From NCBI RefSeq assembly GCF_022376445.1, contig NW_025955081.1:60914-124913 (forward strand): DNA of 64,000 nt, in the 5' to 3' direction. The notes under the pieces are model-generated. The model had not been told where the DNA came from. It saw nothing but the letters and a program-made list of their open reading frames with translations, and did no database searches. The DNA comes from Fomitopsis serialis. Lineage: Eukaryota > Basidiomycota > Agaricomycetes > Polyporales > Fomitopsidaceae. Position numbers and translations under genes: made by a program. The first letter of the stretch is position 1, and the number at the start of each line of letters is the position of its first letter. Shown one piece after another: positions 26,035-58,046 of this stretch.

Positions 26035-27818
26035 TTATGATAGCGAAGCCAAAGGTCCGGGCTTGTTCGGATAAGCAGCATGGAAGTCGGAGACGAGCTC
26101 CGCAGCGTGTTCGAGTTCCGTAGCGAGAATCCAGGAAGTCTCTTCGTCAGTTCCTTCATAACCAGCCCAGCGTACGAAATATAATAGCTGGCAAGCACGA
26201 CGACGACGGTCAATTTTGGAGTCGAGGATTTTGGAGATCTCGAACTCCGGTTCTCCGTCGATAAGAACTGGCGGAGGTGGAGACTGGACTCGTCCGGGAA
26301 TGGTGTTCGGAGTTGCAGGCTCGAGCTGGGAGACGTGGAATACTGGGTGAACAGCGCGCATAGTGTCCGGAAGTCGGAGGGTGAACGAATGGGAACCTGC
26401 TTGGGCAATGATGGTATAAGGGCCCAGGTTCTTTTCAGAGAACTTCTTAGCGGGACACATAGAACGGAAATGCTCGGCTTTGACATATACCGTATCTCCG
26501 ACCTTGAAGTCCGGAGCCGGAAGTCGGTGTTTGTCCACTTGGACTTGATACTGAGCTTGGGCCTGAGCAATGTGCGTCCGGAGTAAGGCGTGGAGTTCGT
26601 CGAGGTTGACAGCGAACTCGCGTGCGCGCGCGGAAGTGAGGGCGCGTTCGGGATGAACAGCGAGGGCCGGATTGTAACCCTTGTTGGCGAAGAAGGGCGA
26701 AATTCCGGTGGTCGCATTCGGAGCATTGTTGTAAGCAAACTCCGCAAGGGGCAGGAGACGCGACCAGTTGTCCTGCTGGTAGTTGCAGTAGACCCAGATG
26801 TACTGTTCCAGGGTCTGGTTGACTCGTTCGGTTTGGCCATCGCCTTCCGGATGATAACCGGAGGTGAAGTGAAGGCGCATGTCGAGGGCTTTACCGAGTG
26901 AGCGGAAGAAATGGGACACGAACTCCGAGCCCCGATCGGAGGTAACGTGCGAGGGAACTCCGTGCTTGGAGAATACATGGAGGATGAAGAGGTCCGCGAG
27001 TTCCGGAGCGGTAAGGGTGTCGTGCGTAGGTATGAAAATGGACTGCTTGGTGAGGCGGTCGACTACGATGAGGATGGCGGTGAAACCATCGGAGTCCGGA
27101 AGCTGCTCGATGAGATCCATGGAGATGGAGTTCCAGGGTCGCTTGGGGATTGGGAGTTGTTTGAGCGTGCCATAAGGAAGATGACGGGGGACTTTGGCTC
27201 GTGCACAGATGGTACAGGACTTGCAGTAGTCTCGGACGAAGAGACGGAGTCCGGGCCAGGAGTAGTCCCGGAGTATGAGGGCTTGCGTCTTGTTCTGACC
27301 GTAGTGTCCAGCGGTCGGATGGTCGTGACGGGATCGGAGTACCCGGAGACGGAAATCGTCCACGTCCGGTACGTAGATGTGACCACTAAGACGCAGGAAG
27401 CCTTCTTCGTCAATGGACCAGCGTGCGTTGTCGCCCTGAGAGGCCAGAGCGAGTCCGGCAGCAAGCTCAGAGTCAGGGAAGGAGGCGGACTGAGCAGTCC
27501 GGATGTCGGAACGGAGTAGATGTTCGTCGTGGATGAGGGATGCACGGAGGACTGGTTCTCAGAGAATGGTTGCCCGGAGAGAGGAAGCGAGCTGTTCCTG
27601 CGTGAAAACAGGTCGGAAGTTGTGTGGGTTGACGACGGAGTAGTCACTATCCCCCTCTTTTGGGTAGACATCCCAACGGCGCGTGAGTGCGTCGGGTTTG
27701 CTTCCGAGTTTTCCGGGGCGGAATCGGATGATCATATTGAACTGCGAGAGGAACTCCGACCAACGCGCTTGACGTCGCGTCAGGAGTTTTGTGGTAGCGA
27801 AGTATTCGAGGTTCTTGT
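26035..27818 (-). CDS. Gypsy A polyprotein C-terminal part: RNase H end, integrase, chromodomain
   Basis: Reading from 27818: [20 protein letters not shown] and [16 protein letters not shown] are the classic RNase H-to-integrase connector. Then come the HHCC zinc-binding region ([25 protein letters not shown]) and the DD35E catalytic core ([44 protein letters not shown]). The C-terminal domain ([26 protein letters not shown]) leads to a chromodomain ([19 protein letters not shown]) that in chromoviruses targets heterochromatin. The 5' end is cut by the Copia insertion, so no start codon exists here. Confidence 0.88.
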
Positions 27819-28103
27819 TGTTGAGCAGACTTGGTCACATGTAGTGGACCGCGCTCTAACTTACCTGCTTGAAGGTGTTGCTGTTAAGCTTGAGGCACAC
27901 AAGTAGTTCCGGTGTTGGAAGTACTGGAGAGAGAGCTACGCTACTGGTGGGTCTTATATACATCTGAGAGATGCTGACTAATACTACTGTATAGTCCATT
28001 CCCACGCATGACTTGCTCTATGCGGTAAGTGCGGATCTAGCACGTGCAGTGCGATCCGGCCCGTGGAACCCGGCGGCCCGGTGGGCGCCTATATGGTTCA
28101 ACA
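27819..28103 (-). repeat. Copia copy 1, 3' LTR
   Basis: 285 bp with TG...CA ends. It carries TATATAAGAC about 120 bases from its end in element sense, probably the promoter TATA box. It differs from the 5' LTR of copy 2 by three substitutions and from the LTR at 33433-33717 by two. Confidence 0.93.
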
Positions 28104-28112
28104 CTCCCCCTT
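28104..28112 (-). other. Copia copy 1 polypurine tract
   Basis: In element sense the sequence AAGGGGGAG directly precedes the 3' LTR. This is the expected plus-strand primer site for reverse transcription. Copy 2 has lost it. Confidence 0.8.
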
Positions 28113-28175
28113 GCTAAGTACGTCCCTGACATACGAAGCATATCCTGGCGCCATGGGCTGCCGTCCGTGGTTGCT

Positions 28176-31100
28176 CTAGGACTCTTCTTCGTAGAATCGA
28201 AGTCCGAGCATGCCTCTGAACTTTTGGAACTTGACACGGCCCAAGTTTTTGGTGAAGAGGTCTGCCGGATTATCGTCAGTGCCAATGAAGAAGACTTCGA
28301 CCTGTCGTTCTTCAATTAGCTCCCTGATATAATGATAGCGTATGTCGATGTGTTTCGACCGCCTCTCAGTTACAGGGTTGGAGCCGATGAATATCGCTCC
28401 TTGATTATCCGAGCAGATAGGTAGTGGGCCAAGTGGATATCCAATCTCCGTGAGGAGCATTTTAATCCATACGACTTGGCGGCTGCAGTCGCTGAGCGAC
28501 ATGTATTCAGCCTCAGTTGAAGACAGTGCTACCGTCTTTTGCCGTCAAGACAGCCAACTGAACACTCCACCAGCTAACTTCATAAAGTAGCCACTCTGAG
28601 ACCTCCGCATCTCCAGGTCGTTAGCCCAGTCGGAGTCTGTGCACGCCGAGACACCTTGTCCAGTTTTGCCGCTGTATACAAGCGCATAGGACTTGGTTCC
28701 AATTAGATAGCGGCAGATATACAGTGCTTTATCCAAGTGGTCTTGTGACGGGTTCGCAGCATGTTGCGCGAGTTTTGTCATGGCGAAACAGATGTCAGGG
28801 CGAGTTCCAAGCATAATATATAGCAAGGAGCCAATGACAGTCTGATACCGACTTCGAAGTGCAGGGTCAACCGTGCCAGTGTAAGGCTCAGGTTTGTAGC
28901 CCGCAGGGAGTGGAGTAGGCGCAGATTTAGCATTCTGCATGCCACAGCGCTCAAGCACCTTCTCAAGGTAGGCAGTTTGGTCGAGATGAATCTCGTCGCC
29001 TTTCCGAGTAATGCTCATTCGCAGGAATTCCTTGACGTCACCAAGGTCGCGACACTCCCACTTCTTCATGAAGCAGTTCTTTAGAGCGGCCACTAGGGCC
29101 TTGTCTTTTCTGCAGAAAAGGGCATCATCCACATAGACAATGATGAGGATGAACCTCCCATCTTTTGTCTTGTAGATGAATATTCCGGCATCGGATACAA
29201 GGCGTACACAGCCAAGTTCCTTGAGGGACTCATTGAGGGTGCGCCACCACGCAAGCCCCGCCTGTTTAAGTCCATAGAGAGCACGCAGTAGCCGGAGGAC
29301 TCTGTGCTCTTGGCCTGGGACTTTAAAGCCGTCAGGCTGCTCCATGTAAATCTCCTCGTCGAGTTTACCATAGAGGTACGCATTACGGACATCGAGTCCG
29401 GAGATGTGCATGCCCTTGAGCGCAGCTAGCGCGAGTATTAGGCGCACGGTCTCAAAGCGTACGACAGGAGAGAAGACCTGATCATAGTCAAGGCCTTCAA
29501 TCTGGGAGTAGCCTTTTGCGACTAGTCTAGCCTTTTTACGACCGTCAGTTTTGACGTCGAAGACCCAGCGGTTTTTGGTAACCCTACGTCCCTTAGGACG
29601 GTCTACCAACTCATAGACATTGCGTTTGCGTAGAGCCTCTAACTCCTCGCGACACGCTAGTCTCCACTTCTCTTGCTCCTCTTTGGGTAGCTTGAGAATA
29701 TCGCGGTATGTCCATTCACGTGGATTGGACTCTGGAGAATCATGTTCAACAGATGGTAATGCGCATGAAAGCAGCATGTTGACCATTCCTACTCCCCCTT
29801 CCCGGCATAGTCGTGCCATGAGTAACTCCTCGACTTCTTCGTCTGAGCCCGAGGCAGATCCAGAAGGTTGGTCTGGCTGTGGTTCTGGCGCGCTAGGTCC
29901 GGGAACCTGTTGCTGCGACCCTGATTGAGGGTTAGGGCGGGTGCTACCCGACCCTTCTCCGACAATCTTTTTCCACTGCCCCTTCTTTTCAATCTCTTTG
30001 TACTGGTCTACGGGATTGTGATTTTCTCCGTAGACGTTCCCTGGGCGAGTTACATGCTTCCGCTGACGACCTGATTTCCGCTGCCCTTGAGGCGCAGGAA
30101 TTCCCGAAGGTTGTGGCGGCGGAACTGGACTGGGCGCCTTTGGCTGCTCCTGAGCATCGTCACGCTCATCGTCCGTTCCCTTTGGAAGGTGGTAGGGACG
30201 AGAGATATCCTCATCGTCTGAATCCTCCTGAGAAGTGGGTTGGTGACCCGCTTTGTGGTCATGTTTTGGCGCGCTTTGCAGCCTAGTATTACCCCGCCGC
30301 TTCATGCTGGGGCATTTGGGGAACATACTCTCGTCGAACAACGCATGTGACGACGTGTAGAGCACATTATTTGGTGCACGCATGAACAAGTCACCGTGAC
30401 CTCCGGGGGCGACACCGAGGTATGTCATTAACTCTGACTTTCTAGACAGAGTGTTCTTGCGCACGTCCTTGGGGATAAAGACGTATGCGCCGCACCCGAA
30501 TACTCGTAGATGCCTAATGGCAGGAGCCTCGCCATTCAACATCTCATATGGTGTCAGCCATTTGAGGCGACGAGATGGTGTCCTATTGTACACATGGACA
30601 GCGTGGTTCACCGCAAATTCCCACCAGGATTCAGGTAGACACACTTCAAGGCGCATAGCCTGAGCTTTGTCCATTATCGTCCTGTTGAGTCGCTCAGCTC
30701 TGCCATTTTCCTGAGGAGTGTGTGGCGAGCTTTGCAAGATCTTGATGCCCTCGTCTTTCAGCATCTTATCAAACGCGTCAGACTTGTATTCTCCCCCAGC
30801 ATCCGACATCCATCCTTTGACTTTCTTGCCATATTGGGTTTTAACCGTGGCGAGAAATTGGCGCGTAGACAAAATCGCAGCACTTTTGGTGCGCAGATTC
30901 ACGGTCCAGGCGTGAGACGTGTAGTCGTCATAGTACAGTATGTAGTACCTGTACTTATGGTAGGAGTCAAGCGGGAACGACTTCACATCACTGTGAATGA
31001 GCTCGAAGGGCTCTGTCGCTCGCTTTGTGGATGGCGGGAAAGCCTTGTTTGGCATTTTCCCTTCTGCACATCCAGGGCACACAGGATCCTCCGTAGGGAA

Positions 31101-31673
31101 CTCAACCCTGAGAGGGAAACCATCGGTGTGTTTTTCAGCCTTCCGAAGAACATCCTTTGAGGGATGCCCAAAACGGCGGTGCATAGTTTCATAGTCTACA
31201 GTGTAGACCGTATTGTGGATACTTTGCGCATCTTCCCCAGAAGCTGCAGCATAAATCCCAAAAATAGAGCCACCTGGGTTCAGCGGTTTAAACACATATA
31301 GTGGATCCCGCGATCCCGGCTCATAGAGGTTGATGTGCTGCGAACCACCGCGCACAGTCATGCCTTCTTTGAGGAAAGTCCCCATGGACAACAACCGTTG
31401 ATGCAGACCTTGGAAATAATAGACAGGGTATAGACGAGTTGTTATCATCTCACCGTCTCCACCTAGGAAATTGATGAAGACGGTCCCGCGCTTCGTGCAG
31501 CGGGCCGTGCCATTCGCAGTCTGCACCAGGATGGGTTTGCTGAGATCCTCAACTTCAGCGAAGTCACTCATCCGGTTGGTAAAGTGCATTGAAGCACCAG
31601 AGTCCAACATCCAAGTTGGGTCTCCATCAGGGTAGGCTTCATTGCCACCCTCTAGGACATCCTCAATCTTCAT
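28176..31673 (-). CDS. Copia copy 1 Pol part: protease, integrase, RT, RNase H (with in-frame TGA)
   Basis: Aspartic protease motif WMLDSGASMHFTNR, GAG-pre-integrase zinc motif (MHRRFGHPSKDV; CPGCAEGK), integrase core (ELIHSDVKSF; MSDAGGEYKSDAF; PQENGRAERLNRT), reverse transcriptase (KNRWVFDVKTDG; HISGLDVRNAYLYGKLDEEI; IIVYVDDALF) and RNase H (TDSDWANDLEMRRSQSGYF). The frame meets TGA at 28545-28547 between the TDSDW block and LSSTEAEYMSL, then continues open in the same frame to the TAG at 28176-28178. The Gag part is cut off by frameshifts at about 31759 and 31977, both one-base contractions relative to copy 2. Confidence 0.9.
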
Positions 31674-31761
31674 TTTTCCTTTACACTTGGAGCACGCTGC
31701 AAACTCTCGCGCGTGACGACAGTGTATATATTTGTGTAATGAACTACCAATACATTCATTA

Positions 31762-33141
31762 TTACACGCGACTTAGATGATACTCTACTACATGCGGCTG
31801 TGGGTAGCGCATTGTCAGTAGGTCGCATGGGAATTGAAGGTGAGGGTACTGACCTGGCGTCCTCGTCCAGATCAAGCCCGGCGGCCATCGCGATGTCCTT
31901 GTCGACGTTCTCGTCGACGTCCTCGTCGTCCGACCCCCAGTTAAGGGGTTCCTGGGTCTCGGCCCAGGTGCCGTCGTGTACGAGTTGTAACCCGCATTCA
32001 CCTCGTCGATCCTCTCGGCCATGTCGTTGTCGTCGTTGGAGAGACGAGCGCGCTTGGATGCACGCGACTCCGTGTCAGAGAGGTAGTCCTCGATCTGTGC
32101 GGAGTTGTCGACAACTTGAGTGAGCGTTTTGAGGCGCTCGACCGTTGGAGAGACGTCAACCTCTTCGGCCAACTTGAGGGCGCGTTGCAGCCATTGCTGG
32201 CAGTTGCGCATAGGGCGCTTCTGCACAGGCGCGTGCGTTTCGACGATGCGGACTTTGCTGCCCGAAGGCGCGATGTCCACGACGTGGGACGTAGAGGGAC
32301 CAGCCACAGACGCCTGCGAGGCGATGTGGGCGTGGTCGTGGCCGTTGCTGTGGCCGCCGCCGTCCTTCTGGGCATGGGTCTTCTTGCCGCTGCGTTTACC
32401 GCGCTGCTTGCCCTTGCCCTTGTCAGCCTTCTCGCCGCTGCCGCTGCCACCGTCATGGCGCTGCTGCTGCTGCTGGAAGCTCGGCTCGCCTTGCTTGCGC
32501 TTGACGGCCGAGATATTCTTCGCGTCGTGCAAAGAAGACGCCTTCTTGCCTGAGCCTTGCTCAAAGGCGAGGTTGGCGGCGTGCCGGACATCCGAGATCT
32601 TGAGCTTCTTGACGTCCGTCGTTTGCAGCATGACCTGCACGACGTTGTCGTACCGTGACGGTAAAGCATTCAGGGCCATCATGGCCAGAAGCGCGTCGGG
32701 GAGCTTGAGATCATTGTCCTCGAGCTTCTCGCAAGCATCGATGATCTTGGCGAGGAAAGGAGCAGGATGCTGGTCAGCAGGAATGCGCACTGTCGTCGCA
32801 GTCCTGAAGGACACGTAGAGGTTTGCAGCGTTCTGCTTGCTGTACATTGTCGACAGCATGTCCCAGAGATCCTTCGCCGAGTCGTTTTCTTTGACGATCT
32901 GAACGACCGAGGGACTGAGGCGCAGGCATATCATGCCTTGCGCCTTCTCGTCCGCCTGGGTCCACGCAAAAACCTCCTGATGGTTCCTGCCGCCCTCTTC
33001 GAGTGTTGGGCGCTCACCGAGAGTCTGTCCGATCATGAACCAGACTTCCTGGCTCTGGAGGTAGGACTTCATGGCCTCCGACCACTTGGCGTAGTTGGAG
33101 CCGTCCAGGACAGGGACCATGTTGAGGAGAGCGTTGGACAT
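31762..33141 (-). CDS. Copia copy 1 Gag part (frame-broken)
   Basis: Starts MSNALLNMVPVLDGSNYAKW at 33141. A UBN2/DUF4219-like Gag region of about 200 residues (KSYLQSQEVWFMIG; AKDLWDMLSTMYSKQNAANL) is followed by a Lys/Arg- and His-rich linker. Codons are equivalent to copy 2 down to about 31977, where a TT run is one base shorter and the frame is lost. The last roughly 75 residues of this open frame are therefore out of frame and not real Gag. No CCHC zinc knuckle was seen. Confidence 0.85.
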   Translation of the reverse strand: MSNALLNMVPVLDGSNYAKWSEAMKSYLQSQEVWFMIGQTLGERPTLEEGGRNHQEVFAWTQADEKAQGMICLRLSPSVVQIVKENDSAKDLWDMLSTMYSKQNAANLYVSFRTATTVRIPADQHPAPFLAKIIDACEKLEDNDLKLPDALLAMMALNALPSRYDNVVQVMLQTTDVKKLKISDVRHAANLAFEQGSGKKASSLHDAKNISAVKRKQGEPSFQQQQQRHDGGSGSGEKADKGKGKQRGKRSGKKTHAQKDGGGHSNGHDHAHIASQASVAGPSTSHVVDIAPSGSKVRIVETHAPVQKRPMRNCQQWLQRALKLAEEVDVSPTVERLKTLTQVVDNSAQIEDYLSDTESRASKRARLSNDDNDMAERIDEVNAGYNSYTTAPGPRPRNPLTGGRTTRTSTRTSTRTSRWPPGLIWTRTPGQYPHLQFPCDLLTMRYPQPHVVEYHLSRV

Positions 33142-33420
33142 TGTGTGAGAGTTGTGTTGAACGGGGGAAGTGTTTAAGAGCTGCTTGGCGAAGGCGACAT
33201 CAGCGCTCTGTCACACAACGGACTGCAGCCAAAAGGCGCTGTCCACACACATGGACTCAGTGTCCTCATGGTGTTTAGCAGCGACGTGAGTCGCGCTTGA
33301 GACCTGCAGCGTTTCCGCGCATAGTCTCCCCCTGGCTTCAAGCCCGTGAGGGCGATGCCGCAGGTAAGCCAGTGCGCACCGAGTCGCAGCCGTTGAGGCG
33401 CAGTACTCAGGTGTCGACCG

Positions 33421-33432
33421 GGGCTCATAACC
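33421..33432 (-). other. Copia primer binding site, copy 1
   Basis: GGTTATGAGCCC directly follows the 5' LTR in element sense. Its complement GGGCTCATAACC is the anticodon stem-loop of an initiator tRNA-Met, not a tRNA 3' end, as in Drosophila copia, which primes from a half tRNA. Confidence 0.7.
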
Positions 33433-33717
33433 TGTTGAGCAGACTTGGTCACACGTAGTGGACCACGCTCTAACTTACCTGCTTGAAGGTGTTGCTGTTA
33501 AGCTTGAGGCACACAAGTAGTTCCGGTGTTGGAAGTACTGGAGAGAGAGCTACGCTACTGGTGGGTCTTATATACATCTGAGAGATGCTGACTAATACTA
33601 CTGTATAGTCCATTCCCACGCATGACTTGCTCTATGCGGTAAGTGCGGATCTAGCACGTGCAGTGCGATCCGGCCCGTGGAACCCGGCGGCCCGGTGGGC
33701 GCCTATATGGTTCAACA
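33433..33717 (-). repeat. Copia copy 1, 5' LTR
   Basis: 285 bp, identical to the LTR at 27819-28103 except two CpG-type transitions. The adjoining outer 5 bp read GGGAG in element sense and match the bases just after copy 2's 3' end (56909-56913), not those outside its own partner LTR. Confidence 0.93.
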
Positions 33718-35028
33718 CTCCCCCTGTACGATATCAATGAGGGCATTGATGTTGTGGGTTTTGAGGGCCTGGTCGACCTTGTATCTGTACGCCGGGCCGT
33801 CATTGACATCGCCCGCTGACGGGCCGACGGGCAGCGGGTTCTTCTGTGCTGAACGAAGGTGCGGGACCGCTTACAACATCTTAAGCGGCGGGATGAATCA
33901 ATACAATACTGAGTCACTCACGATCATGTCTCTTGTCTTTGTGCACCTCAACCACGACACTGTCTCCCCGCCGTTTCCTTTTAGCTTGCCCACTCTGATT
34001 CACTGTCTTGGTGGGCGTCTCGGACTCCTGCAATTGATCTTCTTCGTCACTAAAGTTGATCTCGCTTGCCGGACGCTTTCCCTTCGCTTTCCCGGCCCTG
34101 ATCTCTTGTACTTCGTCACCACGGCCTCCTGCAACTCGTCTTCCTCGTCGCTGGTATCATTGCTGTCCCGTGCCGGTGCCCGGTTAACGTTACCGGTGCA
34201 GCCACCATCACATTCGTCACAGAATGTTCCGCCTTGTCCTCCGATATCTCCATGTAATTCCATCCCACTGTTGAACACTTCACCTCTCCGCCCAGCAGCG
34301 CAGGGCCCGGAGTACGCTCCGCCTCCCGCGTCTCACTGCAGTGCTTGGGATCAGTGCTGGCGTGTGGGAGCTGGAACCGGACTGCATGCGCTGTGTGGGA
34401 CGTCATAGGCCGAGATGCACCAGCCGGCGATGTCTTTCGGGCGCGGTCGGGACGTGTGGGTTCCCGGGGCAGCGGAAGTCACCATGCCAGTAAAGCTGGG
34501 CAGCGGGTGGCCACCGGGCGGGGGACTTGCGGAGTACCAGGCATTCGTGAAGACTCTCGGCCCGTCATCCGATTTGATGCGCGCCATGCGGGTGGAATAG
34601 TCTCCGCTCACGTTGCCGGCCACTTCCTCCATCGCTGAAATAGCGAGCGGGGTACGTATACTACCCACTCTCTCGCTGAAGCCGATTCCAATATCGCGCC
34701 TATTTTGAACTAAGGTCCATGTAAGGCGTTGAAACCAGTGCCAATCTGAGCTACGACTGACCACCGAATTTTCTATGCCATTCCACTGTCATTGGGAATC
34801 CCAGTGTTACTGCCTGTGAAACAATGAATGGGAGTAACTCACGAGCCGCGCAATTGTTGTCCGATTCTGAAGACGGGGATTTTCGGCCTGCCTCAAGCGG
34901 GTTTCGATGTTGCGGCCATATGCAGCGAGGACCAAGTTGGCGTCCAAGGGATCGTCGTACCCCTTAAGTGGGTCAGCGGCTGCCCCCGGCAGAGCATGGT
35001 GGGATGACGAAGCGGAGGTCGAAGCCAT
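33718..35028 (-). CDS. Zn-finger/coiled-coil family gene 1, 5' part (split by Copia)
   Basis: Unknown protein, paralogue of the gene at 35539-38999. It starts at 35028 (MASTSASSSHHALPGAAADP). After an intron comes a conserved block (TPLAISAMEEVAGN...ARIKSDD, near 34560-34640) matching VISAMEELAA...ARITRDD of the paralogue. Acidic and basic linkers follow (SNDTSDEEDELQEAV; QAKRKRRGD near 33960) that look like a nuclear localisation region. The last exon runs into the Copia 5' LTR at 33717, with TSD GGGAG. The reading frame continues exactly in phase at 56914 on the plus strand. Introns and small frame breaks make the middle part approximate. Confidence 0.6.
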
Positions 35029-35538
35029 GAATGAAAGGCGACAGAGAGCAGTACAGAAGTGAGCGGATTATGTCGGGGAGATCAACGAAGTGCAGGGAGG
35101 GAACCAGGTGGCATTTGATCAGGCGTGCGTGGCAATCGAACCACGATCACGTGGCCAAATGTGGCCGAGGGGCCGCAGTAAATCCTATTGGTCAAAATAA
35201 GTACATATCAACATATCCTTACCATAATGCCGTCACGGCACCCAAGCCACCGGCACAGCCGGCCGGGTAATCTCTACATTGGCCGGCGGTCCATACGAGG
35301 ATGTTGATGTCTGACGCCCGGGGGCGGGCATCCGGTGGCGGGCATCCGGTGGCGGGCGTCCGGCGGCGTGCGTCCGAGGGCGGGCACCGGCGACGTGCGT
35401 GCGGCGGCGGGGCAAGCGTGCAAGGGATGATAGATTGTCCAAGTTCAATTTCATGTTCATGTATTGTTTTGTTCCAGCAAAAGAGGTTCCAACAATATAT
35501 ACAGAATCTACTAGTACATTGTGCGTTACACTACCAAA
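35029..35538. repeat. Intergenic with GGCGGGCRTCCGGT minisatellite
   Basis: About 510 bases between two minus-strand genes. Positions 35315-35413 hold a degenerate tandem repeat of a 14-base unit close to GGCGGGCRTCCGGT. The same unit recurs at 40921-40957, 58191-58258, 59850-59938 and 62549-62583. The segment 35029-35280 should contain the promoter of the family gene starting at 35028. Confidence 0.6.
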
Positions 35539-38500
35539 TTACAAATCCCCGCCATAGTCCTGTAACGTCGTCCAAGAGGGGACCATCGGTGGAGTTGCAA
35601 CCCCGCCTTGATCATTGCTGGGTCCGGGTTCGTGTTCCCCGGATGTCATCGCAACATCATTGTCATCCGGCGGCTCGGTCCGCTGCGCTGTCACGTCCGA
35701 GTCCCCATGAAGTCCGGGCGCGTTCGGCGTAACACTCGGTGATACGGGGCGTTCCCCATCGTGGGTTTGGCCTGTCTGCACAACGCTGTGAGCATGCATC
35801 GCTGCATCGAGCACCGTGCTGCTTACCGGCTCTGCAGACGTGCCTTGTGGCACAATACCCGGCTCGTTATCCGGCTCGTTACCTGGGGTCTCCACGACGT
35901 TCTCCTGGGCCTCATTTGACGACTGCTGCTCAGCCGGAGTCATACCGGGAAGGACTTCCTGCGAAGGGGTGACCGGCGGCTGTGAATCTGGAACCGTATT
36001 GTGCGAGTTGGGGGGCGGGGGGTCACAGTGGCCACATGCACCCCCATCCTCTGCTTTGTCGCCGGACACGCCACTCTCTCTGACATCGTGGTTTTTGACC
36101 GCGAGACCCGAAGGGCTTTGGCATGGCGGTGGGGGGAGAGGTGGGGGAGTCTGGGGGGGAGAGGCGGGGGAGTCTGGGAAGGCTGGGGGGGAGAGGCGGG
36201 GGAGTCTGGTATGGCCCTCGGGACCGCCTGGTAACAACCTGCGAGGCATCGTGCACCGCAGGACCGAGGTCCTGGGACACAGCCTCTGCCGCTGCGTCAT
36301 CTTGCCCGAGATGCGCCCTGTCACTGCCAGAGCCCTCGACCACCACGGCGGGTGGAATTTCGGACCGAACAGACTGTGTGGGGCTCGCTGCCATGCTCAG
36401 TGTCGGAGGCGGGGTCATGCGGACAGGGCCCGCCGCTCGTTTCGGGCTCTCCGCCTTTTCCCATCCAATGTTGTTCTCCGCCGACCAATCCATCTCGATG
36501 TCGGCTCCCTGGACGTCCGTTGCGAACGAGAGTGTGATGGCGGCGCCGGGAGCAACCTGCTCTTCATCCATATTGATGTCGTTCTCCAAGACGGGCGCGT
36601 CTTGAAGCTCGCTTGCCGATGGCTCACGGTCCGAAGTCGACGACAAGACCTCGGGATCTTGAGGGGTACCGGAACCCGAAGCCTCGGGCGGCCCCGATGC
36701 TGTATCCGTTTCGCCGGAAGGGAGGCGGCCCTCTGAAATGCAGTCGTCAGTGTTGTTACGACGGATCCATCCAATAAGACTCACCACGGCCAAGGACGAG
36801 CGCACGGAAAGCGTCGAATTCCTGCCTAAGCTGCTGGTACATCTGCCGCAGCTCCACATTCTCCTGTCGCAACTTGTGTAGCTCCTGCGAAATTACGCTT
36901 GCTGACTGGAGCATCACAACCCCCCGCGGCTCTTGCCCGGAAGGTAGCGGTGCTATTTCTGGTCAATGTGAGCGAAACACATCATGGTCACCACGAAGTA
37001 ACTCACGATGCGGGGGCTCCCCGATGTAAGCTGGGACAACGCGTGGTCGCTCAATTTGACCGGCATTTTGTGAAGGGCCGGCGACGCGACCCGGGGACCC
37101 CGGTTCTGGAGTGCTTGCGTCTTCTGGCTCTGCTGACGACTCCGGTGTCTTCGTGGCAGATCTGCTACCGGCGTGCTTCTTTTTCTGTACTGGTTCCGAC
37201 ACGATCCGCGGCCGTTTTGCGGGACGGCGAGCTGTCCGGGTGCTTCGTCGAGAAGACGTAGTGGCCACTGATCCGGCGTCCGATTCTGCTGCCCCGTCAA
37301 ACTCAGAGTCTGGAGGCGGTGTCGCCTCTGATGTCGCTGACTGAGATCGCGACCGTTTTCGCGGATTTGCTTTCCGCCCAGTGGGTGTGCGGGACCGCCC
37401 GCACTTGATTTCATGGGTTCCCGATGTGTCGTAGTCTACACAGGGATTGTGGCCCCGGAAGCACTCGTCGCAGGTCCTCGTGTTCCGCGCGGGGTCGCTC
37501 GAGATCCAGCAATGCATGGAGCGGCATTTGATGCAAGTCGTGGGCTTCAAAAGGCGTCAGCGGTGCGGAGGGAAATGCAACAGGATGACTTACGCGCACT
37601 CTGAGCCATCTCTGGCGCCGTTTCTTCATGATATCCGGGTGCTCCCAGTCGAAGTGCGGCAGCCCCTCCTGTGAGCGCTCGGCTGCAACGACATCCGCAA
37701 GATACTTGATGTCCTTTGTCTTGATTGCCCTGCTAATGCGTTGGTCCAAGGCCTCACCCGGTGTGATGTCCACATCCCAGTATGCTTTTGCCTCCGCAGC
37801 TGCGTTCTCAAGGTCGGTGGGCGATTCCTCACGGTCTGCGCGCGGCGTCAGGGAGACTGCTAGACGCCACGGATATGCTCCTCACCTTTACCCATCTCCT
37901 TGTCATCGTCCAAAGACATGACACTTGCCTCCCATGTCTTTCCGCGGGCTTTGCTGCTCGATGTCTTGCTCTTCCTAGGCACCACGGGCTCCGCTTCCTC
38001 GTCCTCGTCCACAACGAGGACATTGTCCGCATCCTCGTCCTCGTTCACAGGGTGGACGCTGTCCGCTTGCTTCTTGCCTTTTGCCTTGGTCCCCGGGGTC
38101 GCCTTTGTTTTCCGCGTGACCTGCTCTCGCTCCTCGTCCGCGTCCTCGGCAAAGTCGACGCTCCGCGCCCGTTGTTTTCCCTTTGCTTTAGCAGACGCGG
38201 TGCTGGTCAGTTTCTTCGGCCCGGGCTTGGGGCGCTGTCCCCCTTGCTCGGCGTCACCTGACCGCTGCTTGTTGGACTTCTTGGTGGGCGGGGTGGGCGG
38301 TCTCGCCGCCGGCCTGACGGGCGTGACTTGGCGGCGGAATGGGGGGTTCGTGGGCCTCGGACTAACTTCCGGCTCGCCGGAATCGTCGACGGCCATGTCG
38401 TCCTCGTGGTTTTCAGGGAGATCAAATGCGACCGCATGTTGGGGGCGGGAATTTGAGGGAAGGGGATGCGGTGAGGCCACAACATGTGACGGCTTGCCCG

Positions 38501-47500: not shown

Positions 47501-47501
47501 G

Positions 47502-48040
47502 TGTTAGTAGGTCCGGGTCGAGCATTGTGACATTCTCCGATTGGCTGCTTTCCTTATCACTTTCATTCATCATTTCTTGTATTTCTCTTGGCTCTCTTGG
47601 TCTTCGGACCGTATTTTCCTGTATATACTCTGGGACTTGTTCCCCTCGAATCTCAGAGACCCCCTTACCCTCTCAATCTCACCTCGCACCGGTGAGGTTC
47701 GTCAGTCAGCTAGTACGTTCAAAGTCAGCAAGTTCGCCAGTCAGTCAGTTCGTTCGAAGCCAGTCAGTCAGTTCGCCAGTACATTCGCCAGCTCGTAGTT
47801 GCCCCGAGAGGCTCTACACTTCTCCTCCTGCCGTCGCTCGCCTTCCTTGTCACCGTTCGTTCGACACGTCTGTCGAAACCCTCCTTCCTACCTTTGAGGC
47901 TTAGCCCTCGCCTTCTAACAGTCTTCGACATCTTCGAAGCTCTCCCACGTCGTTCGGAGTCTTGTCCGTCCTCCTCCTTCTTACCTAGACCACTGTACAG
48001 TCCCCCGTACATCTCATAGACGCAGAGGCCTCGCATAACA
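47502..48040 (+). repeat. LTR-like segment
   Basis: 539 bp starting TGTTAG and ending ATAACA. It contains ctgtatatactctgg at about 47617-47631, a TATA box for plus-strand transcription, followed by a C/T-rich region typical of R/U5. It has tandem GTCAGTCAGTTCG words near 47700-47780. No partner LTR is in the window. It does not resemble the Gypsy A LTR. It immediately precedes the truncated Gypsy A RT. Confidence 0.45.
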
Positions 48041-49256
48041 CTGCTCGACCTCACGGTTGGGTTTTTGTGTGGCTTTTGTGTTCTTTTCGGTCGCGTCACC
48101 GTACGACCTCAAAATCACCGTTGAGGACGGCGCTGTTCCACCCCTCGGACCTATCTATTCCTTGTCCAAGCTAGAGCTCGACACTCTCCGAGAGTACATT
48201 GACGAGAACCTCCACTCTGGTTTCATCCGCCCTTCCAATTCTCCGTGCGGAGCTCTGGTCCTCTTCGTCAAGAAGAAAGACGGGTCGCTTCGTCTCTGTG
48301 TCGACTACCGGGGTTTGAATAAAATCACCCGGAAGGACCGCTACCCTCTTCCCCTCATCTCCGATCTCCTGGACAGTCCTCGGAAGGCCAGAATCTATAC
48401 CAAGATTGACCTCCGGCACGCCTACAACCTTGTCCGGATTGCTCCGGGAGACGAGTGGAAGACCGCATTCCGAACTCGATATGGATCCTTTGAATGGCAA
48501 GTCATGCCCTTCGGACTTTCCAACGCCCCAGCGGTGTTTCAGCGTTTTGTCAACGAGATTTTTTCCGACCTACTCGATGTTCACGTCGTGGTTTATCTCG
48601 ACGACATTCTCATCTATTCCGATAACCCCGAGGACCACCGGAAACACGTCAAGGAAGTACTCCGGCGGCTCCGAAAGCATCACCTCTACGCTCGTGCGGA
48701 CAAGTGCGAATTTCACGCCGACTCCGTCGAGTACCTCGGGTACATCCTCTCTGCTGACGGTCTAACCATGGCTGAGTCTAAGGTCAAGGCGATTCTGGAC
48801 TGGCCGGAACCCCGCAAAGTCCGAGACGTTCAATCGTTCCTCGGCTTCGCCAATTTCTACCGCCGGTTCATTCACAATTACTCCGAAATCGTCCTACCGC
48901 TCACCCGACTCACCCGGAAATCCGTTGCCTGGAATTTCTCCGAGGACTGCCGTAAGGCGTTCAACGAGCTGAAGCAGGCTTTCACCACCGCTCCGATCCT
49001 GCACCACTGGATCCCCGACAAGCAGATCACCGTCGAGACCGATGCGTCAGACTACGCAATCGCCGGAATATTGTCCATTACTGTGGACTCCGGGGAAATC
49101 CACCCGATCGCTTTTCACTCTCGGACCTTGACTGGTGCGGAACTGAACTACGACACTCACGATAAGGAACTCTTGGCTATTTTTGAAGCCTTCAAGACGT
49201 GGCGGCATTATCTCGAAGGCTCCGAATCTCCGGTCGACGTTGTCACGGACCACAAG
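48041..49256 (+). CDS. Gypsy A reverse transcriptase/RNase H part (5' and 3' cut)
   Basis: Conserved from about 48106: [74 protein letters not shown], the catalytic [11 protein letters not shown], then the RNase H region ([37 protein letters not shown]). It ends in frame at GTCACGGACCACAAG, where the Copia LTR begins at 49257. The following residues are encoded at 27818 downwards on the other strand. Gag and protease are missing upstream of 48106. Confidence 0.88.
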
Positions 49257-51614
49257 TGTTGAACCATATAGGCGCCCACCGGGCCGCCGGGTTCCACGGG
49301 CCGGATTGCACTGCACGTGCTAGATCCGCACTTACCGCATAGAGCAAGTCATGCGTGGGAATGGACTATACAGTAGTATTAGTCAGCGTCTCTCAGATGT
49401 ATATAAGACCCACCAGTAGCGTAGCTCTCTCTCCAGTACTTCCAACACCGGAACTACTTGTGTGTAGTGCATTGCAGGGGTTCGGGTAACCCGCGGGGGT
49501 CGCGGGTACGGGTACTCGCGGGTAAGGGTCCGGGTAGCGATTTCCGTACCCGCATACCCGCCCTGCAGCCGTGCGGGTATTGCCCAAAGCGGCAACCCCG
49601 CGAGCGCCCAAACTCGCGGGGATGCCCCGGTCTGCCCCTTTCGAGTCTCCCTCCACCAGGTCGACTCGCCCACGCCCACGGCCTCAGCCTCAGCAATACG
49701 ACGCACACGCGCGCGGCGAGCACTCGCAAAGACCGCGCGTGCGAACGCAAGGCGAACGCAGCCGACGAACACCGCGAGCCCGGGCGCAGCGACGAACGGA
49801 CGGCAGGCCTGGACGATGAGTGGACGGCGGGGAGGAGTGGGCGACTGGCGGGGACGGGCGACTGGCGGGGACGGGCGAGGGCCTACAGGTGAGTGCAGAC
49901 GCATACGAGCTTGTCCACTAAAGCAGACGCAAGGCATCGCGACGCGCACAACAACTGCGAGCACGCAGGGCCAATGCCCCGCGTGCAGACACAGCCGATG
50001 AACGGGCGACGTAAGGGCAGGGCCGCATGTGGGCGTAGGGTGAATGGGTGGGCAGCAGGCGACTCGGAGGAACCAGGCCGGCGGGCGACCAGGTGAGTGC
50101 AAGCCGTGTGAGCAAGCGCGCTGACCTTGGGCATAGGACGCGCCAACGTGCAGTACAGCAGACACGCCGACCACGAGCGCGACGGGCGAATGCTCCGTGT
50201 GCAAACACAGCCGATGGGCGGACCACGGGCACCAGGGTCAACTAACAGGCGGGCGAGCCAGCCGACGGGCGCGTCGTCGCGCAGCACGCCACGCACGGCG
50301 ACCACGAGCGCGCTGGGTGAATGCCCAGCACGCAGACGTGGCCGTCGAACGCGCACGTACGCACGCAGGTAGGTGGGACAACGGGCACACAGGCGACCAG
50401 ACAGCGAGCAGGCGACCGGACGACCGGATGACTGCCCGACCGGACGACCAAACGAGCTCGCAGGTGGATGGGCTAGAAAAAAGGACACGAGCAGCAGGCG
50501 GGCAGGCCAGCGGATGAGCAAGCCAGCACATCAAAGGGCGACGACACGCACGGCAACCGTGAGCGCGCTGGGCAAATGCTCAGCGCGCAGACACGGCCGA
50601 CGAACGTGTACACGAGGGAGCTGGCAGGAGGAAAAGCGAGCGGGTCAATGGGCGGACAGACGGACCAGCGGGCCAGCGGACGACCAGACGAGTAAGCCGG
50701 TGGATGGGCAGGAGAGCCAGGTAAGCGAGCACACGGGTGGGCGCGCGGGCAGGCGAGAGGACGAACAAGCCGGTACGGAGACACGGCCGACGAATAGTCG
50801 GGCCCACGCAAGCGAGCGAGCGGGTGAACGGGTGAACGGACGGACAGGTGGGCTGGCAGACGAGCATCCGGACGAGCAGGCGGATGAGCAGGCAGGACTC
50901 GGGAGAACAGGCAGACGAGCGAGAGAGCTCGCCGATGGATGGGCAGGAACGCGAGGAAGACGGGTGGGCAAGCGGGCACGGACGGGACAACACGTGGACC
51001 ACCACGACACGCACACCGACCACGAGCGCGCTGGGCAAATGCCCAGCACACAGACACGGCCAATGAACGGCAGGCGGGCGAGCAGAGGATGGGCGAGCGG
51101 AGGACCAGCGAACGGAGGACGAGCGAGCAGAGGACCGGCGAACAGAGGACAAGCGAGCGGAGGACCAGTGAGTGTGCGGCCATAACAACGAGCAAGCGGG
51201 GAAGCAGGTGGACGGGTGCGATGGCGGGAATGCGCGAGCGCGAGCACGGAGAGCGGGGAGGACAGCGGGTGCATCGGTGACCCACCCGCTTGCCTGCGCA
51301 CTCGCATACTTACCTGCTCGCCTGCACGAGCCTCCTCACCGTGGCCACTCCCCCACTCACTCCCCCACCCCCCCGCCATTCTGCCCACGGACCCGCTCAC
51401 GGACCCGTAGACCCGTGGACCCGCAGCACCCGCACGAAACCCGTACCCGCGCTGCGGGTCTGGTACCCGGGCGGGTACGGGTACGGGTAAGCCCCCGGAC
51501 ACCCGGGGGTTTACCCCTGCAATTCACTACTTGTGTGCCTCAAGCTTAACAGCAACACCTTCAAGCAGGTAAGTTAGAGCGCGGTCCACTACGTGTGACC
51601 AAGTCTGCTCAACA
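49257..51614 (+). repeat. Copia copy 2, 5' LTR interrupted by hAT-like element
   Basis: LTR pieces lie at 49257-49464 and 51538-51614, with the 8-bp TSD repeated at 51530-51537. TG...CA ends match the copy 1 LTRs. Three single-base differences from the 3' LTR of copy 1 are all CpG transitions. Confidence 0.92.
49465..51529. mobile_element. hAT-like non-autonomous DNA transposon (2065 bp)
   Basis: It is flanked by the perfect 8-bp TSD CTTGTGTG (49457-49464 and 51530-51537). Terminal inverted repeats are TAGTGCATTGCAGGGGT on the left and TAGTGAATTGCAGGGGT on the right (one mismatch), fitting the hAT terminal consensus. Subterminal regions are packed with CGGGTA/TACCCG words. The interior holds about six degenerate copies of a unit whose core is a palindrome (GCTGGGCAAATGCCCAGC, as at 51028-51045). 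Long open frames on both strands lack any transposase motif and reflect GC-rich low-complexity sequence. Confidence 0.85.
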
Positions 51615-51626
51615 GGTTATGAGCCC
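51615..51626 (+). other. Copia primer binding site, copy 2
   Basis: GGTTATGAGCCC directly after the 5' LTR, identical to copy 1 and complementary to the anticodon arm of initiator tRNA-Met. Confidence 0.7.
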
Positions 51627-51905
51627 CGGTCGACACCTGAGTACTGCGCCTCAACGGCTGCGACTCGGTGCGCACTGGCTTACCTGCGGCATCGCCCTCA
51701 CGGGCTTGAAGCCAGGGGGAGACTATGCGCGGAAACGCTGCAGGTCTCAAGCGCGACTCACGTCGCTGCTAAACACCATGAGGACACTGAGTCCATGTGT
51801 GTGGACAGCGCCTTTTGGCTGCAGTCCGTTGTGTGACAGAGCGCTGATGTCGCCTTCGCCAAGCAGCTCTTAAACACTTCCCCCGTTCAACACAACTCTC
51901 ACACA

Positions 51906-54900
51906 ATGTCCAACGCTCTCCTCAACATGGTCCCTGTCCTGGACGGCTCCAACTACGCCAAGTGGTCGGAGGCCATGAAGTCCTACCTCCAGAGCCAGGA
52001 AGTCTGGTTCATGATCGGACAGACTCTCGGTGAGCGCCCAACACTCGAAGAGGGCGGCAGGAACCATCAGGAGGTTTTTGCGTGGACCCAGGCGGACGAG
52101 AAGGCGCAAGGCATGATATGCCTGCGCCTCAGTCCCTCGGTCGTTCAGATCGTCAAAGAAAACGACTCGGCGAAGGATCTCTGGGACATGCTGTCGACAA
52201 TGTACAGCAAGCAGAACGCTGCAAACCTCTACGTGTCCTTCAGGACTGCGACGACAGTGCGCATTCCTGCTGACCAGCATCCTGCTCCTTTCCTCGCCAA
52301 GATCATCGATGCTTGCGAGAAGCTCGAGGACAATGATCTCAAGCTCCCCGACGCGCTTCTGGCCATGATGGCCCTGAATGCTTTACCGTCACGGTACGAC
52401 AACGTCGTGCAGGTCATGCTGCAAACGACGGACGTCAAGAAGCTCAAGATCTCGGATGTCCGGCACGCCGCCAACCTCGCCTTTGAGCAAGGCTCAGGCA
52501 AGAAGGCGTCTTCTTTGCACGACGCGAAGAATATCTCGGCCGTCAAGCGCAAGCAAGGCGAGCCGAGCTTCCAGCAGCAGCAGCAGCGCCATGACGGTGG
52601 CAGCGGCAGCGGCGAGAAGGCTGACAAGGGCAAGGGCAAGCAGCGCGGTAAACGCAGCGGCAAGAAGACCCATGCCCAGAAGGACGGCGGCGGCCACAGC
52701 AACGGCCACGACCACGCCCACATCGCCTCGCAGGCGTCTGTGGCTGGTCCCTCTACGTCCCACGTCGTGGACATCGCGCCTTCGGGCAGCAAAGTCCGCA
52801 TCGTCGAAACGCACGCGCCTGTGCAGAAGCGCCCTATGCGCAACTGCCAGCAATGGCTGCAACGCGCCCTCAAGTTGGCCGAAGAGGTTGACGTCTCTCC
52901 AACGGTCGAGCGCCTCAAAACGCTCACTCAAGTTGTCGACAACTCCGCACAGATCGAGGACTACCTCTCTGACACGGAGTCGCGTGCATCCAAGCGCGCT
53001 CGTCTCTCCAACGACGACAACGACATGGCCGAGAGGATCGACGAGGTGAATGCGGGTTACAACTCGTACAACGACGGCACCTGGGCCGAGACCCAGGAAC
53101 CCCTTAACTGGGGGTCGGACGACGAGGACGTCGACGAGAACGTCGACAAGGACATCGCGATGGCCGCCGGGCTTGATCTGGACGAGGACGCCAGGTCAGT
53201 ACCCTCACCTTCAATTCCCATGCGACCTACTGACAATGCGCTACCCACAGCCGCATGTAGTAGAGTATCATCTAAGTCGCGTGTAATAAATGAATGTATT
53301 GGTAGTTCATTACACAAATATATACACTGTCGTCACGCGCGAGAGTTTGCAGCGTGCTCCAAGTGTAAAGGAAAAATGAAGATTGAGGATGTCCTAGAGG
53401 GTGGCAATGAAGCCTACCCTGATGGAGACCCAACTTGGATGTTGGACTCTGGTGCTTCAATGCACTTTACCAACCGGATGAGTGACTTCGCTGAAGTTGA
53501 GGATCTCAGCAAACCCATCCTGGTGCAGACTGCAAATGGCACGGCCCGCTGCACGAAGCGCGGGACCGTCTTCATCAATTTCCTAGGTGGAGACGGTGAG
53601 ATGATAACAACTCGTCTATACCCTGTCTATTATTTCCAAGGTCTGCATCAACGGTTGTTGTCCATGGGGACTTTCCTCAAAGAAGGCATGACTGTGCGCG
53701 GTGGTTCGCAGCACATCAACCTCTATGAGCCGGGATCGCGGGATCCACTATATGTGTTTAAACCGCTGAACCCAGGTGGCTCTATTTTTGGGATTTATGC
53801 TGCAGCTTCTGGGGAAGATGCGCAAAGTATCCACAATACGGTCTACACTGTAGACTATGAAACTATGCACCGCCGTTTTGGGCATCCCTCAAAGGATGTT
53901 CTTCGGAAGGCTGAAAAACACACCGATGGTTTCCCTCTCAGGGTTGAGTTCCCTACGGAGGATCCTGTGTGCCCTGGATGTGCAGAAGGGAAAATGCCAA
54001 ACAAGGCTTTCCCGCCATCCACAAAGCGAGCGACAGAGCCCTTCGAGCTCATTCACAGTGATGTGAAGTCGTTCCCGCTTGACTCCTACCATAAGTACAG
54101 GTACTACATACTGTACTATGACGACTACACGTCTCACGCCTGGACCGTGAATCTGCGCACCAAAAGTGCTGCGATTTTGTCTACGCGCCAATTTCTCGCC
54201 ACGGTTAAAACCCAATATGGCAAGAAAGTCAAAGGATGGATGTCGGATGCTGGGGGAGAATACAAGTCTGACGCGTTTGATAAGATGCTGAAAGACGAGG
54301 GCATCAAGATCTTGCAAAGCTCGCCACACACTCCTCAGGAAAATGGCAGAGCTGAGCGACTCAACAGGACGATAATGGACAAAGCTCAGGCTATGCGCCT
54401 TGAAGTGTGTCTACCTGAATCCTGGTGGGAATTTGCGGTGAACCACGCTGTCCATGTGTACAATAGGACACCATCTCGTCGCCTCAAATGGCTGACACCA
54501 TATGAGATGTTGAATGGCGAGGCTCCTGCCATTAGGCATCTACGAGTATTCGGGTGCGGCGCATACGTCTTTATCCCCAAGGACGTGCGCAAGAACACTC
54601 TGTCTAGAAAGTCAGAGTTAATGACATACCTCGGTGTCGCCCCCGGAGGTCACGGTGACTTGTTCATGCGTGCACCAAATAATGTGCTCTACACGTCGTC
54701 ACATGCGTTGTTCGACGAGAGTATGTTCCCCAAATGCCCCAGCATGAAGCGGCGGGGTAATACTAGGCTGCAAAGCGCGCCAAAACATGACCACAAAGCG
54801 GGTCACCAACCCACTTCTCAGGAGGATTCAGACGATGAGGATATCTCTCGTCCCTACCACCTTCCAAAGGGAACGGACGATGAGCGTGACGATGCTCAGG

Positions 54901-56873
54901 AGCAGCCAAAGGCGCCCAGTCCAGTTCCGCCGCCACAACCTTCGGGAATTCCTGCGCCTCAAGGGCAGCGGAAATCAGGTCGTCAGCGGAAGCATGTAAC
55001 TCGCCCAGGGAACGTCTACGGAGAAAATCACAATCCCGTAGACCAGTACAAAGAGATTGAAAAGAAGGGGCAGTGGAAAAAGATTGTCGGAGAAGGGTCG
55101 GGTAGCACCCGCCCTAACCCTCAATCAGGGTCGCAGCAACAGGTTCCCGGACCTAGCGCGCCAGAACCACAGCCAGACCAACCTTCTGGATCTGCCTCGG
55201 GCTCAGACGAAGAAGTCGAGGAGTTACTCATGGCACGACTATGCCGGGAAGGGGGAGTAGGAATGGTCAACATGCTGCTTTCATGCGCATTACCATCTGT
55301 TGAACATGATTCTCCAGAGTCCAATCCACGTGAATGGACATACCGCGATATTCTCAAGCTACCCAAAGAGGAGCAAGAGAAGTGGAGACTAGCGTGTCGC
55401 GAGGAGTTAGAGGCTCTACGCAAACGCAATGTCTATGAGTTGGTAGACCGTCCTAAGGGACGTAGGGTTACCAAAAACCGCTGGGTCTTCGACGTCAAAA
55501 CTGACGGTCGTAAAAAGGCTAGACTAGTCGCAAAAGGCTACTCCCAGATTGAAGGCCTTGACTATGATCAGGTCTTCTCTCCTGTCGTACGCTTTGAGAC
55601 CGTGCGCCTAATACTCGCGCTAGCTGCGCTCAAGGGCATGCACATCTCCGGACTCGATGTCCGTAATGCGTACCTCTATGGTAAACTCGACGAGGAGATT
55701 TACATGGAGCAGCCTGACGGCTTTAAAGTCCCAGGCCAAGAGCACAGAGTCCTCCGGCTACTGCGTGCTCTCTATGGACTTAAACAGGCGGGGCTTGCGT
55801 GGTGGCGCACCCTCAATGAGTCCCTCAAGGAACTTGGCTGTGTACGCCTTGTATCCGATGCCGGAATATTCATCTACAAGACAAAAGATGGGAGGTTCAT
55901 CCTCATCATTGTCTATGTGGATGATGCCCTTTTCTGCAGAAAAGACAAGGCCCTAGTGGCCGCTCTAAAGAACTGCTTCATGAAGAAGTGGGAGTGTCGC
56001 GACCTTGGTGACGTCAAGGAATTCCTGCGAATGAGCATTACTCGGAAAGGCGACGAGATTCATCTCGACCAAACTGCCTACCTTGAGAAGGTGCTTGAGC
56101 GCTGTGGCATGCAGAATGCTAAATCTGCGCCTACTCCACTCCCTGCGGGCTACAAACCTGAGCCTTACACTGGCACGGTTGACCCTGCACTTCGAAGTCG
56201 GTATCAGACTGTCATTGGCTCCTTGCTATATATTATGCTTGGAACTCGCCCTGACATCTGTTTCGCCATGACAAAACTCGCGCAACATGCTGCGAACCCG
56301 TCACAAGACCACTTGGATAAAGCACTGTATATCTGCCGCTATCTAATTGGAACCAAGTCCTATGCGCTTGTATACAGCGGCAAAACTGGACAAGGTGTCT
56401 CGGCGTGCACAGACTCCGACTGGGCTAACGACCTGGAGATGCGGAGGTCTCAGAGTGGCTACTTTATGAAGTTAGCTGGTGGAGTGTTCAGTTGGCTGTC
56501 TTGACGGCAAAAGACGGTAGCACTGTCTTCAACTGAGGCTGAATACATGTCGCTCAGCGACTGCAGCCGCCAAGTCGTATGGATTAAAATGCTCCTCACG
56601 GAGATTGGATATCCACTTGGCCCACTACCTATCTGCTCGGATAATCAAGGAGCGATATTCATCGGCTCCAACCCTGTAACTGAGAGGCGGTCGAAACACA
56701 TCGACATACGCTATCATTATATCAGGGAGCTAATTGAAGAACGACAGGTCGAAGTCTTCTTCATTGGCACTGACGATAATCCGGCAGACCTCTTCACCAA
56801 AAACTTGGGCCGTGTCAAGTTCCAAAAGTTCAGAGGCATGCTCGGACTTCGATTCTACGAAGAAGAGTCCTAG
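51906..56873 (+). CDS. Copia copy 2 Gag-Pol polyprotein (one in-frame TGA)
   Basis: A single frame of 1532 codons to TGA at 56502-56504, continuing in phase for a further 122 codons to TAG at 56871-56873. Domains by residue: Gag about 1-210, a Lys/Gly/His-rich linker about 210-290, aspartic protease near 510 (LDSGASMHF), GAG-pre-integrase and integrase about 620-860, RT about 1130-1370 (YVDDALF) and RNase H from about 1500 (TDSDWANDLEMRR). The TGA separates the first RNase H acidic block from LSSTEAEYMSLSDCSRQ. CGA to TGA is the likely change. Unlike copy 1, the Gag-to-protease junction is intact. All catalytic motifs are present up to the TGA. Confidence 0.93.
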
Positions 56874-56894
56874 AGCAACCACGGACGGCAGCCC

Positions 56895-56908
56895 AAGTCT
56901 GCTCAACA
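56895..56908 (+). repeat. Remnant of Copia copy 2 3' LTR
   Basis: AAGTCTGCTCAACA, the last 14 bases of the LTR, is joined directly to the internal sequence ending CGGCAGCCC. The junction shares CCA with both parental sequences, suggesting a microhomology-mediated deletion of the polypurine tract and the rest of the LTR. Confidence 0.85.
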
Positions 56909-58046
56909 GGGAGCGGGCTGTCAAGCGCCTGCCCAAGTTCAACTGGGACGCCGGGAAGATTCGGGGACGGCGCAAAGCTATCTGGCTGAGGACCATGGTG
57001 AGCTTGAATCATTCTTTTGATCGCCGGGAACTCATTAGCCGCTGCAGGAGCCTCCATGCACGCGGTGCTCCGGCATTCACTGCTGGATCTCCAGCGATCC
57101 CAACGCCAAGCGTCCTGCTACGAAGTGTGACGAGTGCGCCCGACTGGGCAAAAAGTGCTTTACCAGCGAGGCCCGCAATCCGTCCCCGGCTGACGAGGTC
57201 GGGGCGGGTCGATCCAGCACACCAACCCCGCCCAACGCAAACACCCAACACCGAGCCCGATCTCCGTCTGCTCTGCCCGATGCAAGTGGCCCTCCGGAAT
57301 CCACCGCGGATGCGCCCGCGGAGCAGGACAATGCTTCAACCACCGCCACCACCCCTCGAGGAAGCGGGGAAGAATCATGCGCTGCCGGGCAGTGCACATT
57401 GGATGCGGACAAACCGTGCACCTTCGTCCGCGCATACATTGGGGCACTCCCGCCAAGTGAGTGTTTCATCCATTCCGCTGTGATCATTATTTACGTGTGA
57501 TAAATGTACAGGATTGGCTCATCGGAAGCCGGACCCAAGTGCAGAGGGCATTGAGCTCCTGGAAACAACGGCGGACGTCTCATACAAAGTCCGAGAACTG
57601 CGACAGGAGAATGCTGAGATCCGCACCATGTGCGATGAGCTCCGGCAGGACTTCGCGACACTCCGTGAACACCTGAGAGCACGTAGTAAGTCAGACATGA
57701 AGTCCCTGGGCCATACTGCACTGAAATCAAATTGGCAGACAGTATCCGTGCTTTCACACACTTTGAACACCAGCCCGGAGCAGCGGCAGCGTCGGAGATG
57801 CTGGTTGATCATGGGGCGCAGACGAACGTTCCTGCCTCCCCGGATACATCGTCGCTGAGCAGGCATGCCATCCCGGCACCCAACTTGGCAAGCCACGACG
57901 TACACGAGGTTCCCGACGACACTGTCATTGCTTCTGCCACACTCCGGCATGCTTCCGCGTTGTGCACACAGGATGGCAGCGACATGGCCAGTATGGATGA
58001 TGGTAGTGATTTGGACATGTCAAGCGATGATCCCGACGCAGTGTGA
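56909..58046 (+). CDS. Zn-finger/coiled-coil family gene 1, 3' part
   Basis: Continues the gene broken at 33718. After TSD GGGAG the frame reads RAVKRLPKFNWDAGK and RRKAIWLRTM, parallel to FDWEHP...RRQRWLR of the paralogue. An intron (about 56999-57040) leads to PCTRCSGIHCWISSDP and CDECARLGKKC, the Cys cluster C-x2-C-x4-C...C-x2-C-x5-C. A Pro/Ala/Ser linker, a further intron, a coiled coil (VRELRQENAEIRTMCDELRQ near 57590) and an acidic end SMDDGSDLDMSSDDPDAV with stop at 58044-58046 follow. No promoter or start is left on this side, so this half should be silent unless read from Copia. Confidence 0.62.

Follow-up and report, generated by a model that had tools for sequence, protein, structure and literature searches.

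Crossed target-site duplications at two inverted Copia copies in Fomitopsis serialis support an inversion of the 15.5-kb segment between them

The window, a stretch of 64,000 nucleotides of Fomitopsis serialis DNA without N, contains two Ty1/copia retrotransposon copies, which lie in inverted orientation at the ends of the segment 33718-49256 (Table 1). The assignment to Ty1/copia follows from the gag domain, an integrase placed before the RVT_2 reverse transcriptase, LTRs of the form TG...CA and target-site duplications (TSDs) of 5 bp. The LTR ends of both copies read TGTTGA...TCAACA and directly abut all four flanking 5-mers. The two LTRs of copy 1 differ from each other at two sites. A deletion in copy 2, with 3 nt (CCA) common to both of its edges, has removed the polypurine tract and left only the final 16 bp of the 3' LTR, and the 5' LTR of this copy is split by an insertion of 2,065 bp.

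Table 1. Positions of the elements, target-site duplications and host segments in the window
Feature	Position	Strand	Remarks
Host Gypsy, 3' part	24194-27818	-	H2C2, integrase, Tf2-like SH3, chromodomain
ACAAG beside copy 1 3' LTR	27814-27818	-	plus strand CTTGT; partner 49252-49256
Copia copy 1	27819-33717	-	two 285-bp LTRs; Pfam gag, rve, RVT_2
Copy 1 3' LTR	27819-28103	-	
One-base gaps in copy 1	~31760, ~31977		opposite copy 2 ~53070, ~53290
Copy 1 5' LTR	33433-33717	-	
GGGAG beside copy 1 5' LTR	33718-33722	-	plus strand CTCCC; partner 56909-56913
Host segment of the GGGAG insertion, inner part	33718-42320	-	collinear with contig C23
Segment with supported inversion	33718-49256		point of exchange would be within the Copia copies
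Host Gypsy, RT-RNase H part	48099-49256	+	parted from the remainder by the ACAAG insertion
ACAAG beside copy 2 5' LTR	49252-49256	+	partner 27814-27818
Copia copy 2	49257-56908	+	hAT-like insertion within 5' LTR; most of 3' LTR deleted
hAT-like insertion	49465-51529		terminal inverted repeats about 17 bp; 8-bp TSD CTTGTGTG
8-bp TSD CTTGTGTG of the hAT-like insertion	49457-49464 and 51530-51537		
Copy 2 3' LTR remnant	56893-56908	+	last 16 bp of the LTR
GGGAG beside copy 2 3' LTR remnant	56909-56913	+	partner 33718-33722
Host segment of the GGGAG insertion, outer part	56909-63265	+	directly next in C23; its beginning also in C273 and C21

The insertion in the 5' LTR of copy 2 has the terminal inverted repeats and the 8-bp TSD of hAT elements, and it is this duplication that we take as the link to hAT. 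A scan of four open reading frames in the insertion gave no Pfam match at E<=0.001 and no hAT transposase, so that it is at most a non-autonomous, hAT-like insertion. It contains many internal repeats.

In the sense of the elements, copy 1 lies between GGGAG and ACAAG and copy 2 between ACAAG and GGGAG, which means that the TSDs are exchanged between the copies. The initial annotation had described this arrangement, with each duplication split between the two copies, and all four 5-mers were indeed found in place against the LTR ends. From the base composition of the window, both crossed matches would arise by chance with a probability of ~1.3e-6; the uninterrupted relatives of the two target sites, described below, are a stronger test and are independent of this figure.

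Ten other Copia copies of the family were retrieved through their 3' half, nine of them with a 5' piece as well. Both LTR ends are readable in five of the nine, while the 5' LTR falls outside the fetched piece in C351, C701, C247 and C579. The 5-bp flanks are identical in three of the five (C129, C84 and C23), agree at four of five bases in C92 and are unlike in C300. Flanking repeats of 5 bp are thus typical of this family, and the window copies are not alone in having unlike flanks. The C300 copy (L036 and L024), with its unlike flanks, is possibly also a recombinant, and no partner for it was found among the flanks read.

At the ACAAG site the interrupted host is a Ty3/gypsy element, as indicated by the order of its domains on two parts of the window: RVT_1 and RNase H, then an H2C2/rve integrase and a chromodomain. 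The RT-RNase H part ends at 49256, and the part running from RNase H into integrase starts at 27818 on the opposite strand. A search with 48039-49256 found nine places that match over most of its length, including the window, with 40 of 121 candidates scored. In all eight others, which hold both parts, the match to 26300-27813 adjoins at a distance of 0-2 bp (same 40 of 121 candidates). All seven relatives that were fetched align contiguously across one ACAAG; over 60+60 bp four show no difference, one has a single gap and two (L007 and L008) are ~91% identical. In the uninterrupted relative L006, 100 residues can be read without a stop across the joint. This bears out the proposal that re-inversion rejoins the RNase H-integrase region of the Gypsy element across a single ACAAG.

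The host Gypsy element is itself cut off at 48099, and the next 1.5 kb of the fetched relatives beyond this point has no listed match of at least 60 bp in the window. The interval 42318-48098 holds other repeated DNA, among it a piece of an integrase zinc finger (H2C2). A unit of ~404 bp at 46256-46659, with 27-bp terminal inverted repeats, is MITE-like, and at least 11 places among the matches listed resemble its first ~283 bp at 96-98%.

The GGGAG site interrupts a segment with relatives elsewhere in the genome. The flank 33723-34700 has four matches and the flank 56914-58000 has seven, three of which are 62-bp fragments. Outside the window three contigs, C23, C273 and C21, hold both flanks in like orientation. 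The spacing between them is 5 bp on C23 and C273 and 4 bp on C21, which has one G fewer in the run yet retains GGGAG. All three join 33718 to 56909 across one GGGAG, with 95-97.5% identity over 60+60 bp. On C23 the order is that of the re-inverted window: positions 42320 to 33718, descending, are succeeded by 56909 to 63265 in a collinear stretch. Homology to C23 ends at 42320 and 63265; judged by its fetched pieces, C23 is related to the right half only. Relatives of 33718-42320 and 56909-63265 are ~96-98% identical on C23 and mostly 75-88% identical (67% in short pieces) on C273 and C21. The initial annotation had placed an unknown gene's frame across one GGGAG. C23 does carry an open frame of 249 amino acids, stop to stop, across the site; its status as a gene did not find support, with no Pfam match and no homologue at E<=0.001. 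The target site, 33718-33724, happens to read GGGGGAG, like the polypurine tract of the element, and this reading is native in C23.

The uninterrupted relatives show the re-inverted order at both sites independently, which supports the view that 33718-49256 lies inverted relative to the pre-insertion order. In the uninterrupted state each site has one copy of its target, without deletion or duplication, the comparison being with relatives from the same genome rather than with this locus in a second strain. The simplest cause would be recombination between the two inverted Copia copies, as one exchange explains both sites. Two elements of one family would have inserted 15.5 kb apart in opposite orientation, one into the Gypsy element, generating the ACAAG duplication, and the other into the segment with relatives elsewhere, generating GGGAG. 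Subsequently the inverted copies, lying on the same chromatid, would have undergone homologous exchange; this would have turned round the intervening DNA, so that each copy ended up with one target-site repeat of its own insertion and one of the other. Inversions with exchanged TSDs are well known to arise in this way. Hybrid-end transposition, which has to be excluded for DNA transposons, is not known to be used by LTR retrotransposons. The insertions, their target sites, the crossed repeats and the ancestral order at both sites are observed directly; from these we infer a crossover, and one that happened in the chromosome itself.

The two interiors align over 5,281 columns with one mismatch and two one-base gaps (99.94% alike), in agreement with the earlier description of inverted repeats of ~5.3 kb. 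Copy 1 differs from six other family copies at 66-171 of about 3,600 sites (~3.6 kb), the comparison comprising these six copies, with L031 left out and L022, L028 and L029 (opposite orientation) having no row against the window copies. The 5' LTR of copy 2 and the 3' LTR of copy 1, which belong to one insertion according to their TSD, differ at 3 of 285 sites, all of them CpG transitions. For substitutions, 3/285 in the LTR against 1/5279 in the interior gives a Fisher probability of 0.0005, which becomes 0.002 when the two gapped sites are counted and 0.0003 when only CpG positions are used. As the interiors are less diverged than the LTRs, these small counts point to homogenisation of the Copia interiors relative to the LTRs, and conversion accompanying the exchange would produce such a difference.

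Copy 2 has a base of its own at all three differing sites of the interior, two gapped and one substituted, while the other family copies have another base in 8/8, 4/4 and 9/9 of those aligned (10 copies compared). Copy 1 has the family base at the third site and is missing one base at each of the other two. That both gaps of copy 1 fall on variant sites of copy 2 by chance has a probability of ~2e-7 if the gaps are independent and exactly placed; their placement is ambiguous, as a run of two or three A includes the variable site, and the true chance is somewhat higher. Plain shortening of the A run is possible. The coincidence suggests that the consensus of copy 1 may have drawn on reads of both copies, in which case the copies were not kept apart everywhere.

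Under the simplest hybrid expectation of the recombination proposed in the initial annotation, the 5' LTR of copy 2 should pair with the 3' LTR of copy 1. LTR site 132 is a misfit: its base is common to the two LTRs of copy 1 and differs in the 5' LTR of copy 2 and in all ten of the other 3' LTRs compared, and it therefore gives no support to the crossed pairing. Conversion between LTRs or reversion could lie behind this pattern. As markers of chimerism, the LTRs offer few differing sites, of which 132 points against the crossed pairing, and the interiors are almost devoid of markers.

Genome searches with the flanks 26300-27813, 33723-34700, 48039-49256 and 56914-58000 gave the window as the sole place matching the full query at 100%, among the matches listed, and no contig carrying the other Copia-bearing order was found among them. 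Matches of 100% to 26300-27813 and to 38500-42300 are confined to C26, and for 5000-8000, searched for a second copy, the window alone matched. A near-identical second version of window ~12.6-23.6 kb is present on the contig C763 (L044; 11,425 bases), which was found with shorter queries, those above 10 kb missing near-identical matches, even the window itself. The searched pieces of 15000-22200 match C763 at about 100%, C763 having roughly 500 additional bases near 16287, and a base-by-base comparison over ~6.56 kb gives 99.79% identity between the final 6,553 bases of the contig and 17000-23556. It may represent the other haplotype or a redundant contig. C763 ends at 23556, 0.6 kb short of the Gypsy element and short of the Copia copies, and is therefore silent on their order.

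The possibility that the flanks match by chance, or that GGGAG was copied from the polypurine tract of the element, is suggested by the GGGGGAG common to that tract and to the 5' flank of copy 1, and we regard it as extremely improbable. GGGGGAG is native in C23 and GGGGAG in C21, both without Copia, C273 aligns across the same bases, and the recombination reading has the advantage of explaining both sites at once; the uninterrupted relatives with their native GGGAG rule this origin out. A more serious alternative, which we hold to be possible but the less probable course, is that the segment is uninverted in the strain and that the assembler switched between the Copia copies within the 5.3-kb repeat at both ends. 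The crossed appearance of the TSDs would be identical in that case, and the length and near identity of the repeat favour such an error, as do the fragmentation of the assembly (806 contigs for 66 Mb, the contig of the window ending at the window end) and the short redundant contig C763, which repeats part of the left flank. Copy 1 is also one base short at two of the three interior difference sites, as a consensus of mixed reads might give; a consensus of this kind can also come from read correction when reads do span the repeat. Against an assembly error, the contig is continuous through both copies, and the hAT-like insertion and the LTR differences provide anchors near the copy edges.

It is also conceivable, if rather unlikely, that both orders exist, in different nuclei, cells or strains, the repeats having been homogenised and the segment flipped repeatedly. 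This would fit the homogenised interiors, the mixture suggested by the gaps of copy 1 and the slightly different C763, from which two versions of the locus may be present in the sample, and a precedent exists in the yeast flip/flop region (PMC9731477). C763, however, stops before the Gypsy and Copia region, and among the matches listed no contig has the other order, flanks of ~100% identity being confined to C26. The fullest form of this proposal, a flip/flop segment of 15.5 kb with Copia copies kept alike by conversion, repeated inversion, coexisting orders and a real mixture in copy 1, seems more doubtful still. The weights given to these readings do not sum to one, since flip/flop overlaps the main explanation. 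Overall, a chromosomal flip is favoured over an assembly flip, and a chromosomal inversion by homologous exchange between the inverted Copia copies appears reasonably probable on the sequence evidence. The initial annotation had considered the locus the expected product of homologous recombination between inverted repeats; the ancestral order is confirmed at both sites and an inversion against it is supported, and the chromosomal event is to be read as probable only.

If chromosomal, the locus would be a well documented single case of a retrotransposon-mediated inversion, in which the two target sites, an empty native counterpart of each and the two recombinant copies are all legible in one genome. 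It also carries a caution: at near-identical inverted copies a real inversion and an assembly flip leave the same signature, and exchanged TSDs alone are therefore no proof of a chromosomal event. Such exchanged TSDs are an established signature (PMC2775673), and the present case adds a clean further example to a known class of event.

In Drosophila, PMC2775673 describes opposite orientation, exchanged TSDs, a single uninverted target and chimeric copies as the grounds on which ectopic recombination was inferred. The inversion 2z3 of Drosophila buzzatii, generated by Galileo and described there, resembles the present locus in having opposite copies at the segment ends, exchanged TSDs and a single uninverted target, as well as later insertions, one of them a hAT, nested in the breakpoint copies. 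Unlike the Ty1/copia elements found here, Galileo is a DNA transposon with 7-bp TSDs. For 2z3 the breakpoints were sequenced in both chromosome arrangements, inverted and non-inverted, and chimeric copies were shown, whereas the comparison here is with relatives in one assembly. In the Saccharomyces flip/flop region (PMC9731477), near-identical inverted repeats of ~4 kb can repeatedly invert a segment of 24 kb and are themselves homogenised, which is similar to the small inversion between nearly identical inverted repeats kept alike that is proposed here. The yeast repeats are gene pairs, and both orders occur in strains, whereas in the present locus the repeats are transposons and one order is seen.
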